DNA of 64,000 nt from an uncultured Prevotella sp. GTDB lineage: Bacteria; Bacteroidota; Bacteroidia; Bacteroidales; Bacteroidaceae. The position numbers and the translations under genes are program-made. A model generated the notes under the pieces. That model was not told where the DNA came from and searched no databases. It worked only from the letters and a program-made list of their open reading frames with translations. Positions within the stretch are counted from its first letter, which is position 1. Each line of letters opens with the position of its first letter. The DNA lies in assembly GCA_905233425.1 (NCBI GenBank), contig CAJOEC010000001.1, positions 62,001 to 126,000 on the forward strand. Direction: 5' to 3'. Of the stretch, positions 18,161 through 48,510 are shown in pieces.

Positions 18161-19198
18161 ATGACGCTGAGCATCATCATTCCTGTCTACAACGTAGAGA
18201 AATACATACGTCCCTGCCTGGAGAGCGTCTTCAGGCAGGGACTTGACGACAACGATTTCGAGGTCATCGTGGTGAACGACGGCACGCCCGACCATAGTAT
18301 GGAGATTGTCGCCTCTTTCGCCGAGCTTCATCACAACGTCAATATCGTTGAGCAGTCAAACCAGGGACTCTCGGCAGCAAGAAACACCGGGCTGGACAAT
18401 GCCAAGGGAGATTACATATTCTTCCTTGACAGCGACGACATTCTAATTCCAGACACCCTGCCCTTGCTGTTGAAAGAGGCTGAAAGCCATAATACCGACA
18501 TGGCTGTGGCCGACTTTGTGAAAATGGACGATGATGCCATAGAGGCTACCCAACTCTCAACACTCAACACTCAACACTCAACGCTCAACGCTCAACTCTC
18601 AACACTCAACACTCAACACTCAACGCCCAGCGCTCAATGCCCAACGCCAAAAATATTGAGCGGCACCGAGATGTTCCTTGGCAAGTTGTTCAATCCTCGT
18701 GCGTGTTACGTGTGGCACACGCTCTACAAGCACACGTTTCTTCTTCAGAACGGCCTTCGCTTCATACCCGGCATCTATTTCGAGGACGTTCCTTTCACCA
18801 CCAACTGTTATCTCAAGGCCGACAGGTGTTTGTTTACAAAATTGCCTATTTACATCTATCGCCAGAGGAAGGACTCCATTGTCTCGTCGATTAACATGAG
18901 AAAGGTGACCGACATGAACACGGTCATAGCACACCTGTGGCAGATGAAGTCCGACCTTTGCACCACGCCTGAACTGCGCCAGCGCATGGACGAAACAATA
19001 TTCGCCACATTCTCAATTGCTTCGTGGTATGTCGCCAACGACAAGAAACTGTTGGACGACAGGCACACCTTCGTTGCCGACTTGCGCAGCAAGGTGCCGC
19101 AACTTACGTTCAGCGGTGGAGTGAAGCAACGGCTGACATCAGCCTTCTTCAAACTCATGCCCGAAACATATCTGTGGCTGAGGTCGAAGAAACCCTGA
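18161..19198 (+). CDS. Glycosyltransferase family 2 with in-frame heptamer-repeat insert
   Basis: 345 residues. The GT-A fold is clear: LSIIIPVYNVEKYIRPCLESV at the start, FEVIVVNDGTPDHS, QGLSAARNTGLDNAKGDY and the metal-binding FLDSDD (about 87-92). It transfers a sugar during capsule, O-antigen or exopolysaccharide synthesis; donor and acceptor are unknown. Residues about 131-163 are encoded by a tract of (CTCAACA)-type repeats and read QLSTLNTQHSTLN and so on, inserted between the catalytic core and the following helical region. Seven-base repeats can shift the frame if their number changes. It is probably co-transcribed with the aquaporin gene. Confidence 0.9.
   Translation: MTLSIIIPVYNVEKYIRPCLESVFRQGLDDNDFEVIVVNDGTPDHSMEIVASFAELHHNVNIVEQSNQGLSAARNTGLDNAKGDYIFFLDSDDILIPDTLPLLLKEAESHNTDMAVADFVKMDDDAIEATQLSTLNTQHSTLNAQLSTLNTQHSTPSAQCPTPKILSGTEMFLGKLFNPRACYVWHTLYKHTFLLQNGLRFIPGIYFEDVPFTTNCYLKADRCLFTKLPIYIYRQRKDSIVSSINMRKVTDMNTVIAHLWQMKSDLCTTPELRQRMDETIFATFSIASWYVANDKKLLDDRHTFVADLRSKVPQLTFSGGVKQRLTSAFFKLMPETYLWLRSKKP
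18551..18648 (+). repeat. Heptamer tract (CTCAACA)n inside the GT2 gene
   Basis: About 14 units of CTCAACA/CTCAACG/CTCAACT variants, degenerating at the right end (CGCCCAGCGCTCAATGCCC). Open in all three frames on this strand. Confidence 0.85.
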
Positions 19199-27203: not shown

Positions 27204-27345
27204 AGTAGTTTGTTTTTTAGGGTTAAGTTATTAATAATAGGAATATGTACTAATCTACCCGCAAATTTAGCCCTTTTTCTCCACAACGGCACACAACGAG
27301 CCAGTTATTTGTGATAATTTAACGTATTCCCCGAAAGGCCTTCGA

Positions 27346-27406
27346 GTTCGCGCCGGGCGAACTCAGAGTTCGCACGGCGCGAACTGACAGTTCGCCCGGC
27401 GCGAAC
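27346..27406. repeat. Array of three 17-bp palindromes, exact 22-bp period
   Basis: GTTCGCGCCGGGCGAAC (27346), GTTCGCACGGCGCGAAC (27368) and GTTCGCCCGGCGCGAAC (27390), with 5-base spacers (TCAGA, TGACA). The same array with a fourth unit is at 38937-39019. Confidence 0.9.
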
Positions 27407-27426
27407 TCTTAGAGCCTCCGAAGCCC

Positions 27427-27485
27427 GGATCATGGGGACAGGAACATTGCCCCAAGTCTGGGTCAAGTGCCTGTCCCCATGACCC
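27427..27485. repeat. 59-bp near-perfect palindrome, copy 1
   Basis: Outer arms TCATGGGGACAGG and CCTGTCCCCATGA enclose GCCCCAAGTCTGGGTC. The second copy (36593-36651) pairs better. It resembles REP elements mobilised by REP-associated tyrosine transposases, an inference only. Confidence 0.8.
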
Positions 27486-27545
27486 GGCAATCCTTAGCTT
27501 TTAACCATTTTTACGGGTTGTGAGGCAGAAAAAGGACGGAAAAGT

Positions 27546-29322: not shown

Positions 29323-32157
29323 ATGGTTTATTCAATAGAAAAAGTGGCGACGTTGATAGGCGCCCGCCGCTATGGCAACAGCGACACCACCGTGGGATGG
29401 CTTCTCACCGACAGCCGCTCACTGTGTTTCCCCGAACAGACACTCTTCTTCGCACTCCGCACCAAGCGCAACGACGGCCACCGCTACATCGACGAGCTGT
29501 ACCGCCGTGGTGTGCGCTCATTCGTGGTTGAGGTGGTGCCCGACAACTATCCGAGTGTCTACCCGCAAGCCAATTTCCTGCGCGTGCCCTCATCGATAGC
29601 CGCGCTGCAGCGTCTGGCCGAGCGCCACCGCGACGAGTTCGACATCCCCGTTGTGGGCATCACCGGCTCCAACGGCAAGACGTGGGTGAAAGAATGGCTC
29701 TACCAGATTCTTTCGGGCGTAAACACCCAGCACTCAACACTCAACCCTCAACCCTCAACACTCAACACTCAACCCTCAACCCTCAATGTCACCCGCTCGC
29801 CACGGTCGTACAACTCGCAGATTGGCGTGCCCCTGTCCGTGTGGCTCCTCAACGAGCAGACGCAGGTGGCGCTTTTCGAGGCCGGCATCAGCGAGCCTGG
29901 CGAAATGCTTCCACTTAGCGACATCATTCAGCCTACCATCGGCGTGTTCACATCGTTGGGGACGGCACATCAGGAGAATTTCCGCACTATGGAGGAGAAA
30001 TGCCTTGAGAAGATGCAGCTCTTCCACGGCACCAAGGCCATTGTCTATCCCACCGACGACGACACCGTCTCTCGCTGCATACGCCGCAGCGGATACCAGG
30101 GAGAGCGAATAGGATGGAGCCGATACGACAGCAAAGCCCCGTTCTTCGTGGAAAGCATCTCAACCCCCACCCCCTCAACACTCAACACTCAAATCACATA
30201 TATATATAAAGGAACGCGAGGGACCTACTCCATCCCCTTCGACGACGAGGCTTCCATAGAGAACAGCATCACCTGTGCCGCCACGGCCCTCATTCTCGGC
30301 ATCGACGCGCAACAGCTCGCAGCTGCCATGGAGGCCCTGGAGCCGATAGCCATGCGCTTGGAGGTGAAGCAAGGGCAGCGGGGGCTGACACTCATCAACG
30401 ACTCGTACAACAACGACCTGCAGTCGCTCGACATCGCCCTTGACATCATGGCACGAAGGGGGGGCAAAAAGACTCTGATCCTCAGCGACATCTACCAGAG
30501 CGGGGAACAGCCGCAGGAACTCTACCGGCAGGTGGCCGACCTCGTGGCAAAGCGTGGAGTGGAAAAGCTCATCGGCATAGGCCCGGAAATATCGGCACAT
30601 GCCGACATCTTCAACTCACAACTCTCAACGCTCAACTCTCAACACTCAACTCTCAACACTCAACACTCAACTCTCAACACTCAACTCTCAACGCTCAACA
30701 CTCAACTCACATGGTTCTTCCCCAATGTGACGCTGTTCATGCAGAGCGACATATTCCACCAGCTGCGCGACGAGGTGGTGCTGCTCAAGGGAGCACGCCG
30801 CTTCGGCTTCGAGCGCATCTGCGAGGAGCTGGAGCAGAAAGTCCATGAGACAATCCTCGAGGTCGACCTCAACGCTGTGGTCGCCAACCTGAACCACTAC
30901 CGCTCGCTGCTGCGACCAGAGACGAAGATGGTGTGCATGATAAAGGCCGACGCCTACGGTGCCGGAGCCATCGAGATAGCCAAGACTCTGCAGGAGCACC
31001 GCGTGGACTACCTTGCCGTGGCCGTCGCCGACGAGGGCGTGGAGCTGCGCAAGGCAGGCATCACGCAGAACATCATCGTCATGAACCCCGAAATGTCGTC
31101 GTTCAAGACGCTCTTCGACTACGGTCTGGAACCGGAGGTCTACAGTTTCCGACTGATGGACGCTCTCATAAAGGCAGCACGCTCGCAGGGCATCACCGGC
31201 TGGCCTGTGCACATCAAGCTCGACACCGGGATGCACAGACTGGGGTTCAATGTTCAGAGTTCAGAGTTTAGCGACAATCCTTCAGCAAACAATAGTCACT
31301 CAACCCTCAACCCTGAACTCTCAACACTCAACCCTGAACTCTCAACACTCAACCCTGAACTCTCAACACTCAACCCTGAACTCTCAACCCTCAACCCTGA
31401 ACTCTCAACCCTCATCTCCCGTCTCACCCACCAGCAGGCCATCATCCCGCGCTCGGTGTTCACCCATTTCGTGGGCAGCGACAGCACCGACTTCGACGCT
31501 TTCTCAGCCCGCCAGTTCCAGCTCTTCGACGAGGCCAGCCGAAAGCTGCAGGCCGCCTTCAGCCACAAAATCCTGCGCCACATCGACAACTCCGCCGGCA
31601 TAGAGCACTTCCCCGAGCGACAGCTCGACATGTGCCGATTAGGCATCGGCCTCTACGGCATTCCCGCTTCATCCCCCAACGCCGCCACCCCCGTAGGGAC
31701 GCGACGTGTCGCGTCCGCCACCGCCACCGTGCCCAGCGCGTTAGCGTCGGGTCGTTCCAGCCTCCTCACCCCCGTCTCTTCCCTTTTCACCACCATCCTC
31801 CAGCTCCGCCATGTCCCCAAGGAGGACACCGTTGGCTACAGCAGGAAGGGCACCCTTACCCGCGACAGCATCATCGCCGCCATCCCCATAGGCTATGCCG
31901 ACGGCCTGGACCGCCGGTTGGGCAACCGCAAGGGCTACTGCTTGGTGAACGGCCAGCGGGCGGAGTACGTAGGCAACATTTGCATGGACGTGGCTCTCGT
32001 AGACGTCACCGACATCCCGTGCCAGGAAGGCGACCGCGTGGAGATCTTCGGCCGCAACCTGCCCGTCACCGTCCTCAGCGATGCCATGCAGACCATCCCC
32101 TACGAGGTGCTCACCTCCGTCTCCAACCGGGTGAAACGAATCTATTTCCAAGACTAA
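29323..32157 (+). CDS. MurF-alanine racemase fusion with five repeat-encoded insertions
   Basis: 944 residues. The first half is MurF (UDP-MurNAc-tripeptide:D-Ala-D-Ala ligase): GITGSNGKT (112-120), SYNSQIGVPLSVW, NDSYNNDLQS. The second half is alanine racemase: PLP lysine in MIKADAYGAG (Lys541), KLDTGMHRLGF, and DNSAGIEHFP. The fused form is normal for Bacteroidetes, but usual length is near 820. The excess is five low-complexity segments at about 134-155, 281-290, 431-462, 645-698 and 785-818, coded by CTCAACA tracts or, in the last, by palindromic elements. All sit between conserved blocks, apparently in loops. Both active sites remain intact. It is expected to be essential for peptidoglycan. 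Confidence 0.93.
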   Translation: MVYSIEKVATLIGARRYGNSDTTVGWLLTDSRSLCFPEQTLFFALRTKRNDGHRYIDELYRRGVRSFVVEVVPDNYPSVYPQANFLRVPSSIAALQRLAERHRDEFDIPVVGITGSNGKTWVKEWLYQILSGVNTQHSTLNPQPSTLNTQPSTLNVTRSPRSYNSQIGVPLSVWLLNEQTQVALFEAGISEPGEMLPLSDIIQPTIGVFTSLGTAHQENFRTMEEKCLEKMQLFHGTKAIVYPTDDDTVSRCIRRSGYQGERIGWSRYDSKAPFFVESISTPTPSTLNTQITYIYKGTRGTYSIPFDDEASIENSITCAATALILGIDAQQLAAAMEALEPIAMRLEVKQGQRGLTLINDSYNNDLQSLDIALDIMARRGGKKTLILSDIYQSGEQPQELYRQVADLVAKRGVEKLIGIGPEISAHADIFNSQLSTLNSQHSTLNTQHSTLNTQLSTLNTQLTWFFPNVTLFMQSDIFHQLRDEVVLLKGARRFGFERICEELEQKVHETILEVDLNAVVANLNHYRSLLRPETKMVCMIKADAYGAGAIEIAKTLQEHRVDYLAVAVADEGVELRKAGITQNIIVMNPEMSSFKTLFDYGLEPEVYSFRLMDALIKAARSQGITGWPVHIKLDTGMHRLGFNVQSSEFSDNPSANNSHSTLNPELSTLNPELSTLNPELSTLNPELSTLNPELSTLISRLTHQQAIIPRSVFTHFVGSDSTDFDAFSARQFQLFDEASRKLQAAFSHKILRHIDNSAGIEHFPERQLDMCRLGIGLYGIPASSPNAATPVGTRRVASATATVPSALASGRSSLLTPVSSLFTTILQLRHVPKEDTVGYSRKGTLTRDSIIAAIPIGYADGLDRRLGNRKGYCLVNGQRAEYVGNICMDVALVDVTDIPCQEGDRVEIFGRNLPVTVLSDAMQTIPYEVLTSVSNRVKRIYFQD
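29727..29788 (+). repeat. Heptamer tract in murF-alr, insert 1
   Basis: CTCAACA/CTCAACC units, coding NTQHSTLNPQPSTLN between the Walker A helix and the VTRSPRSYNSQ block of MurF. Confidence 0.85.
30160..30195 (+). repeat. Short heptamer tract in murF-alr, insert 2
   Basis: About three or four degenerate units, coding STPTPSTLNTQ in the middle of the MurF domain. Confidence 0.6.
30611..30709 (+). repeat. Heptamer tract in murF-alr, insert 3
   Basis: Roughly 14 CTCAACA/CTCAACT/CTCAACG units coding repeated STLNTQ, in the MurF C-terminal domain before TWFFPNVTLF. Confidence 0.9.
31297..31412 (+). repeat. 21-bp repeat in murF-alr, insert 4
   Basis: About five copies of a 21-bp unit (three heptamers: CTCAACA, CTCAACC, CTGAACT) coding NPELSTL repeats, in the racemase barrel just after GMHRLGFN. 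Confidence 0.9.
31693..31716. repeat. GTAGGGACGCGACGTGTCGCGTCC element inside murF-alr (insert 5)
   Basis: Coding VGTRRVAS after the GIGLYGI block of the racemase; same family as 19213 and 47079/47125. Confidence 0.85.
31729..31751. repeat. GTGCCC...GCGTTAGC...GGG element inside murF-alr
   Basis: GTGCCCAGCGCGTTAGCGTCGGG, coding VPSALASG. Other copies: 32201, 47870 and 48534. Confidence 0.8.
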
Positions 32158-36579: not shown

Positions 36580-36592
36580 TGAACTTTAACGC

Positions 36593-36651
36593 GGGTCATG
36601 GGGACAGGAACATTGACCCAAGTCTGGGTCAAGTGCCTGTCCCCATGACCC
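36593..36651. repeat. 59-bp near-perfect palindrome, copy 2
   Basis: Arms GGGTCATGGGGACAGG and CCTGTCCCCATGACCC plus inner TTGACCCA/TGGGTCAA around AGTC. It lies 14 bases after the lipoprotein stop and could also act as a transcription barrier. Confidence 0.9.
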
Positions 36652-36706
36652 GCCCATGCCCCGCGCTGGAGGCCGCTGAAATTTTAATATTACGAATTGC
36701 AGAGAA

Positions 36707-38891: not shown

Positions 38892-38936
38892 CATTTGCAG
38901 GAAAAACTACAGACAAGCCCCCGAAAGACCGAAAAA

Positions 38937-39019
38937 GTTCGCGCCGGGCGAACTCGGTGTTCGCACGGCGCGAACTGACAGTCCGCCCAGCGCGAACTGG
39001 AAGTCCGCGCCGGGCGGAC
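38937..39019. repeat. Array of four 17-bp palindromes, exact 22-bp period
   Basis: Units start at 38937, 38959, 38981 and 39003: GTTCGCGCCGGGCGAAC, GTTCGCACGGCGCGAAC, GTCCGCCCAGCGCGAAC, GTCCGCGCCGGGCGGAC. The first two are identical to units 1 and 2 of the array at 27346. Confidence 0.9.
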
Positions 39020-39184
39020 TTTTTGGCATGTCGGAGACGATTTTGACAGAGACACGGGCAGAGGCTGACATTGCCCCTGGCTGGACATCGGGCTGGCCCG
39101 TGGCCTACCCCTACAGAAAACCAAGGTGCAAAAATAATAAAAAAGCGATACGGCCAAAGGTTTTCGGGAAAACTTTGGAAAACT

Positions 39185-39258: not shown

Positions 39259-40899
39259 ATGGCAGAGAAGAGGGGATATGGCGTAGGTCTGCAGACATTT
39301 GCAGACATGATAAAGCGAAAGGCAGTCTATGTAGACAAGACAGCGTTTGTGTATAAGATGGCACATAGTACGGGTAAGAACTTCTTCCTGAGCCGTCCCC
39401 GGCGGTTTGGCAAGTCGTTGCTGGTGACCACGCTGCAGGCTTATTTCGAGGGGCGCAGGGAGCTATTCAAGGGGCTGGCAATTGAGAAGTTGGAGACGGA
39501 GTGGACGCAGTACCCCGTGATTCACCTTGATCTGTCGAATGGTAAGTACTACGAGGAGACAAGCGTGGACAAGATTTGTGGCGGATTGTTAAAGTGGTAT
39601 GAGAGGGATTACAGCCTTCATCCGAAAGAAGATGACAGTCTGAGTGACCGTTTTACCGCCATCATCAAGGCTGCATACGAAAAGACACAGCGTGAGGTGG
39701 TGATTCTCATCGACGAGTACGACGCGCCGATGCTCGACAGCATCCACGACCCGAAGCTGCAAGACCACCTGCGACAACGCGTCCGCGACCTGTTCTCGCC
39801 GCTGAAGGCACAGGAGCAGTACCTGAAGTTCGTGTTCCTCACAGGTATCTCAAAGTTCTCGCAACTGAGCGTGTTCAGTGAGCTGAACAACCTGAACATC
39901 CTGACCTTCGACCCGGAGTATGAGGGTGTCTGCGGCATCACCGAGGAGGAACTCTTCACACAGCTGAAGCCCGACATCGAGTGGCTGACGGAGGCCATGA
40001 GCCGCCGTGTACACCGCACCTTTACCTACGAAGACACGGTAGCCAAGCTGAAGCACATGTACGACGGCTATCATTTCACCGACATGATGACCGATATCTA
40101 CAACCCGTGGAGCCTGATTTATTCATTTGAGAAAGGCTGGATAGACAACTACTGGTTCGGCACCGGCACACCCTCGTCGCTCATCAATCTGCTTCGCGTG
40201 AAACAGCTCGTCATACCCGACCTTGAAGGCTTTGAGGCCGACAAGGAGACTTTCGACGCACCCACGGAACGCATTTCCGACCCTGTGCCAGTGCTTTTCC
40301 AGAGCGGCTACCTCACCATCAAGGGCTATGACTACGAGGACAACACCTTCACGCTCGGTTTCCCCAATGAGGAGGTTTATCGGGGCTTTTCCAAGTCGCT
40401 CTACAATTATTATTGCGAAGAATACGTCGGCAGCCGTAATCAGATGAACAACGTATTCCGCGACCTGCGCCGAAAGAGAATCACCTTTGAGCAGTTCCTT
40501 GAGAGTGTGCGGAAATGGTATGCAGGAATCCCTTATTCAATTACTGACAAGAACCAGAACGAGCAGTTCTACCAGGCACTGTTCTATTCGCTGATGGTCG
40601 GAGTGGGTGCTGATGTCAGTGCTGAGGAGCAGACCAGCGACGGGCGTATGGACATCGCATTGAAACTGGCCGATGCCATCTACATTCTGGAGTTCAAGTA
40701 TGGCAAGACCGCCGTAGGGGCAGACCCCGTGCCAGCCCGCACAGGCCCCGTGCCAGCCCTCAAAGCCACGGAGCAGATCATCGCAAAGGACTATGCCGTG
40801 CGCTTCGCCGCCGACGCCCGCCCCGTCTGGGCGGTGGGTCTGAACATCAGCGCGGACTGTCGCACCATCGAGAGCTTCGAAGTGGTGAAAGTGAAATAA
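39259..40899 (+). CDS. AAA-ATPase-like / PD-(D/E)XK nuclease-like protein (DUF1703), copy 2, with repeat insert
   Basis: 546 residues. GVGLQTFADMIKRKAVYVDKT opens the AAA-like domain, Walker A is SRPRRFGKSLLVTTL, Walker B VVILIDEYDAPML. The C-terminal nuclease-like domain has DGRMDIALKLADAIYILEFKYGKTA, then VGADPVPARTGPVPA, then KATEQIIAKDYAVRF. The middle segment (about 486-501) is translated from a dispersed GTAGGGGCAGACCCCGTGCC element inserted in frame directly after the E-x-K motif region. The copy is only distantly similar to the protein at 13276. The role is unknown. Confidence 0.85.
   Translation: MAEKRGYGVGLQTFADMIKRKAVYVDKTAFVYKMAHSTGKNFFLSRPRRFGKSLLVTTLQAYFEGRRELFKGLAIEKLETEWTQYPVIHLDLSNGKYYEETSVDKICGGLLKWYERDYSLHPKEDDSLSDRFTAIIKAAYEKTQREVVILIDEYDAPMLDSIHDPKLQDHLRQRVRDLFSPLKAQEQYLKFVFLTGISKFSQLSVFSELNNLNILTFDPEYEGVCGITEEELFTQLKPDIEWLTEAMSRRVHRTFTYEDTVAKLKHMYDGYHFTDMMTDIYNPWSLIYSFEKGWIDNYWFGTGTPSSLINLLRVKQLVIPDLEGFEADKETFDAPTERISDPVPVLFQSGYLTIKGYDYEDNTFTLGFPNEEVYRGFSKSLYNYYCEEYVGSRNQMNNVFRDLRRKRITFEQFLESVRKWYAGIPYSITDKNQNEQFYQALFYSLMVGVGADVSAEEQTSDGRMDIALKLADAIYILEFKYGKTAVGADPVPARTGPVPALKATEQIIAKDYAVRFAADARPVWAVGLNISADCRTIESFEVVKVK
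40719..40757. repeat. GTAGGGGCAGACCCCGTGCC element inside DUF1703 copy 2
   Basis: The element codes VGADPVPARTGPVPA. Other copies: minus strand near 8717-8753, plus 63882-63905, and a variant at 33852. Confidence 0.8.

Positions 40900-47205: not shown

Positions 47206-48510
<1,305 letters not shown>

Follow-up and report, generated by a model that had tools for sequence, protein, structure and literature searches.

The gene considered here raises the question of how a copy of a dispersed repeat came to be read as protein immediately beside a predicted nuclease active site, and whether the protein has survived it. The gene (locus L001) lies in the window, by which we mean the whole 64,000-nucleotide stretch of an uncultured Prevotella genome that was analysed, and its features are collected in Table 1. 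Profile searches identify the Pfam domains AAA-ATPase_like and PDDEXK_9 in its open reading frame (ORF), the latter at 52.9 bits against a curated cut-off of 25.5, and the ORF has no internal stop codons or other damage. The acidic residue and E-x-K expected of a PD-(D/E)XK nuclease domain are present in the protein, a predicted nuclease: D465, E478 and K480 are invariant in all 41 sequences of alignment A1, as is Q506. When synteny was used as a test of orthology, the window's neighbouring genes were found at none of the homologous loci, thus the kinship of the gene family rests on the tree described below. Paralogues of the host gene reach contig edges on eight contigs of the same genome (G000; C2, C10, C18, C38, C40, C80, C89 and C105), so that the copy number of the family in this genome is probably underestimated or broken by the assembly.

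Between the strand that carries E478 and K480 and the helix that carries Q506, the host protein follows the path EFKYGKTA-VGADPVPARTGPVPALK-ATEQI with the frame kept, where homologues have, for example, KTA-EE-ATEQI. In an alignment of approximately 100 homologues the E-x-K strand runs straight into the helix, with the insert lacking. The first-pass annotation of this DNA had described an in-frame insertion of a palindromic element next to the putative catalytic E-x-K at 40719–40757. Both the genomic copy number and the homologues that lack the segment confirm the insertion itself, although its start was placed 5 nt late. The annotation had also allowed that the segment might turn out to be conserved protein sequence in homologues; we find it in only one paralogue, which it would have reached by separate insertion or short gene conversion, and it is therefore not conserved protein sequence. 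The word "palindromic" holds for the family, the unit of which is REP-like, but less well for the window copy, which is a single unit followed by a 21-nt tandem duplication; the inverted pairs of about 115 bp that are common elsewhere in the genome are absent at the host gene. A similar 21-nt expansion is seen in a subtilase gene (L255). An RNA hairpin in the window copy, the only copy folded, was considered and rejected, as the predicted fold is no better than those of shuffled sequences (z = 0.78).

Table 1. Positions of the host gene, its putative catalytic residues and the repeat-derived segments, in window coordinates.
Feature	Position	Strand	Remarks
Host gene (locus L001)	39259..40899	+	546-aa predicted ATPase with C-terminal PD-(D/E)XK domain (PDDEXK_9, formerly DUF1703)
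D465 codon	40651..40653	+	Invariant, putative catalytic Asp; alignment A1
E478-F479-K480 codons	40690..40698	+	Putative catalytic E-x-K; E478 and K480 invariant in alignment A1
Insert, codons 486-502 (VGADPVPARTGPVPALK)	40714..40764	+	Net +15 residues relative to homologues, which have two residues there; alignments
GTAG REP unit within insert	40714..40739	+	One mismatch to genome consensus GTAGGGGCAGGCCCCGTGCCAGCCCG
Two 21-nt tandem copies	40724..40765 (40724-40744, 40745-40765)	+	Second copy imperfect; read directly from the sequence
Q506 codon	40774..40776	+	Invariant, in helix just past insert; alignment A1 and AlphaFold2 model
Degenerate copy of REP unit	39089..39114	-	About 145 nt upstream of host gene start

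The insert belongs to a large dispersed family. With up to three mismatches, the 20-mer GTAGGGGCAGACCCCGTGCC has 142 matches in the 4.93-Mb genome to which the window belongs, versus 2 for the reversed control, and the 26-nt unit GTAGGGGCAGGCCCCGTGCCAGCCCG has 134 versus 0. Among 100 genomes of the genus, this one included, three others carry the 26-nt unit, in 17, 3 and 2 copies. The details of the unit were surveyed in a 1.9-Mb sample of the genome, which contains 91 units, among them 19 inverted pairs with GTAG facing outward, mostly 113–117 bp across. The consensus starts with GTAG and continues into a GGGGCAGGCCCC palindrome. A GTAG or GTGG foot to a short palindrome, a high dispersed copy number and frequent inverted dimers are the marks of GTAG-type REPs (PMC3733652, PMC2817692), and it is on the fit of head, palindrome, copy number and pairing that we identify the family as such. 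GTAG REPs within genes have been described by Di Nocera, De Gregorio and Rocco in 2013 (PMC3733652), and the family reported here, which shares with theirs units in frame inside ORFs as well as units whose TAG ends the flanking ORF, is a fresh instance of them.

The assembly deserves some caution, as the genome is metagenome-assembled and lies in 193 contigs, with several copies of the host gene family ending at contig edges. An insert created by assembly or sequencing is nevertheless very improbable: the site is in the interior of a 130-kb contig, the window copy has base changes and a tandem duplication of its own with the frame kept, and many other genes, as well as another genome (G096), have in-frame inserts of a comparable kind.

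The in-gene copies mostly share one reading frame. Of the 14 in-gene units flanked on either side by coding sequence, 11 are read as VGAGPVPAR, as are 12 of 15 once a unit with a flank too short for this census (L247) is added; the three others comprise two RAGTGPAP-like readings and one GLARGLPL-like. Two earlier variants of the census gave 10 of 11 (first pass) and 8 of 9 (stricter) in one frame, and the thresholds of the third were changed after a copy in guaA was seen to have been missed, that is, they were chosen after looking at the data. With the two units of the subtilase gene counted once, the chance of 11 of 14 falling in any one of five open frames is approximately 2e-5 if the frames are equally likely, a value that is only indicative because L001 and its inserted paralogue L002 may be non-independent and the thresholds were adjusted after a first look. 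Four more units provide a TAG stop at gene ends. Approximately 17% of the sampled units are located within genes; bacterial coding density is usually high, thus most insertions into genes appear to have been purged. We infer that selection underlies the frame bias. Individual cases vary in clarity: an in-frame unit in a 2-oxoacid:ferredoxin oxidoreductase subunit is absent from all 19 homologues compared, while an ABC-F ATPase has its unit in a linker whose variability prevents a clean insertion test. In G096, three of three REP copies (L268, L269) are in frame in predicted T9SS-like C-terminal tails (VDGVGAGPVPARLRKGLYIVNGKKV), as is L247 in the window's own genome, which suggests that the copies in G096 have spread together with the tail module.

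Whether the insert harms the nuclease can be approached through predicted structure and substitution patterns. The AlphaFold2 model of the window protein, built on a 41-row alignment, has a mean pLDDT of 86.3, and its sole segment of at least three residues below 50 is 484–497, which corresponds to the insert. The surrounding elements (E-x-K strand 474–481, next helix 499–509) match those in the model of an uninserted relative, L103 (strand 474–481, helix 485–494), so that the comparison of predicted structures proposed by the first-pass annotation shows an unchanged fold. A search of the PDB with the model was uninformative, returning mainly AAA+ proteins at low TM-scores, with HincII above E = 0.001. 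When compared with uninserted kin, the nuclease domain has a dN/dS of approximately 0.1, similar to that of pairs without an insert, although this ratio is averaged over a long branch and is blind to recent loss of function.

It could be that the insertion has damaged or abolished the nuclease, leaving the host gene as a pseudogene at an early stage that persists only because little time has passed since the event. The insert does fall between the E-x-K strand and the helix of the invariant Q506, several paralogues in the genome could cover a loss, and damaging insertions do happen at this loop, as an element in a homologue (L098, below) replaces the helix. Set against this, the frame has been kept through both the unit and the 21-nt duplication, all the putative catalytic residues are retained, the predicted fold is unchanged, and the ORF is intact with a dN/dS like that of uninserted pairs. 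We therefore consider a pseudogene improbable. The suggestion that the insertion may alter or abolish activity is thus unsupported as far as abolition is concerned, and the model is more consistent with a tolerated and probably disordered loop that is unlikely to inactivate the protein, which most likely remains functional.

The loop is a recurrent insertion site. The paralogue L002, 65% identical to L001, has a single unit of the REP found in L001, in the identical position; L010, a paralogue represented by a partial gene, has a different element with seven copies in the genome; and L098, a homologue from another Prevotella, has a 113-nt inverted-repeat element in place of the helix that follows. 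There are thus four inserted family members and three kinds of element. In a 63-row tree, from which the partial gene L010 was left out, the inserted rows L001, L002 and L098 need three changes, all of them forced by well-supported branches. Columns filled in fewer than 60% of rows were dropped, by which the insert, though not masked by hand, should be mostly removed. Four copies of the L010 element, GAAAGGCTACGGGTAGGCGAGCAAGGCTCGGGAATC, were examined, and in three of them (L164, L166 and L167) an open frame reads ERLRVGEQGSGI.

On the tree, then, the REP units of L001 and L002 were gained separately, by insertion or by conversion. If a single event had given rise to the insert and short gene conversion had then carried it from one gene to the other, their shared site would be no recurrent target of the REP. 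The REP sequence and the bases immediately adjoining it are indeed very similar in the two genes, but their 60-nt flanks are 75–80% identical, not above other conserved stretches of the genes, and we regard conversion as the less likely, though by no means negligible, route. Whatever the history of this pair, the loop has been hit repeatedly, because different elements occupy it in L010 and L098. The expectation that the locus would provide a natural test of loop tolerance is borne out by these members and their separate changes: within one family that includes uninserted close kin, two paralogues have one or two units of one repeat beside a predicted active site, and two further members have unrelated repeats there.

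With these observations, we consider it highly probable that a REP has inserted into the loop and been extended by the 21-nt duplication, with the fold and catalytic residues kept and the protein most likely functional. We propose that a GTAG-type unit would have landed in the loop that joins the E-x-K strand to the helix, oriented and in phase to be read as VGAGPVPAR, and would then have grown by in-frame tandem duplication. The resulting Gly/Ala/Pro/Val-rich stretch may act as a flexible extension of the loop, around which the fold and the catalytic residues would stay put. Gene insertions in other frames or at other places would mostly have been purged, which would account both for the one frame shared by in-gene copies and for the recurrence of this loop as a site.

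A candidate for the enzyme that moves the REP is present in the genome. There are four Y1_Tnp genes. One of them is on contig C75, with an inverted REP pair adjoining its 5' end and no REP within 1.5 kb on the other side. As units occur about once per 35 kb, finding a unit this close (1.5 kb) to a single gene out of four is only modest evidence of association. The C75 protein has the motifs NHFH, WQ and YIFNNP, matching those listed for subclass 2.4 of the REP-associated tyrosine transposases (TnpA-REP; NH[IFV]H, WQ, YIxNNP), a subclass reported to be abundant in Cyanobacteria and Bacteroidetes and to have canonical long REPs (PMC6006769). The REP may be mobilised by a Y1 (RAYT/TnpA-REP) transposase such as this one.

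In the 2013 survey, Bacteroidetes are represented only by CGTC repeats, and GTAG repeats by Proteobacteria, Cyanobacteria, Chloroflexi and the PVC group; the survey also reports a single instance in which roughly one position of a gene holds different REPs in two species (PMC3733652). In-gene GTAG REPs in Bacteroidota are an addition to that survey, and the present family differs from those described in its rumen Prevotella-type host, in the predominance of one frame among in-gene copies and in the three kinds of element at one loop. It is the reuse of one active-site loop together with the shared frame that takes this locus beyond a routine case, and it suggests that selection decides in which frame a selfish repeat is turned into protein. 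The Rickettsia palindromic elements of Ogata, Claverie and colleagues, as they are described in the survey that cites them (PMC3733652), are likewise mobile palindromic repeats translated in frame as part of proteins that are otherwise ordinary, a likeness that we draw by description only; in contrast to those long insertions, the REP unit is shorter, at about nine residues.

Nearer to the Rickettsia elements in size, and alike in behaviour, is a second family of 113–197 nt with long terminal inverted repeats (CCTCACCCCCAGCCCCTC..GAGGGGCTGGGGGTGAGG), seen at L175, L183, L187, L208, L216, L220, L239, L242 and in the L098 loop. Its lengths are nearly all 2 mod 3, and within ORFs it is read in one frame, LTPSPS..GEG..VTTPLP..GGAGGEA. 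The predicted hosts include GH31, DUF2027, Fe-S oxidoreductase, GH2, GMP synthase, DUF6298, 4Fe-4S and histidine-kinase-like proteins. The sole match to guaA (GMP synthase) in the genome (L216:6044-7726) has two in-frame repeats, a VGAGPVPAR unit and an inverted-repeat element; the latter is just before AVQFHPEV, where 18 of the 19 homologues shown have nothing comparable. In the guaA of genome G019, a different repeat-like stretch occupies the same loop as the inverted-repeat element. The second family was sought in the 100 genomes by an exact pattern search, which is too strict to show its distribution. This protein-coding inverted-repeat family may be the more novel part of our observations.

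We tentatively suggest, as a possibility with somewhat less than an even chance, that rumen Prevotella-type genomes harbour several unrelated families of small mobile repeats (the REP, the 113–197-nt element and the seven-copy ERLRVGEQGSGI element), the in-gene copies of which are read predominantly in a single frame, giving peptides that are probably disordered. Such families would be a recurrent source of in-frame loops, including those of guaA and the nuclease, with the same loops reused, and would be for the Bacteroidota what the palindromic elements are for Rickettsia.

Other repeats were seen in and around the window. A 7-nt repeat (ACTCAAC and variants) occurs in arrays at window positions 18543-18660, 29680-29810, 30597-30727, 31279-31437 and 47802-47930, and this repeat is also in frame in an ABC-F ATPase as a HSTLNTQHSTLNT-like peptide. 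A 22-nt repeat, AGTTCGC(G/A)CCGGGCGAACT, forms arrays at window positions 27323-27429 and 38936-39020, the second just upstream of the host gene. Additionally, a 66-nt repeat with long self-complementary ends (CGGGTCATGGGGACAGG..CCTGTCCCCATGACCCG) is found at window positions 27426-27491 and 36592-36657, the two copies being 94% identical.
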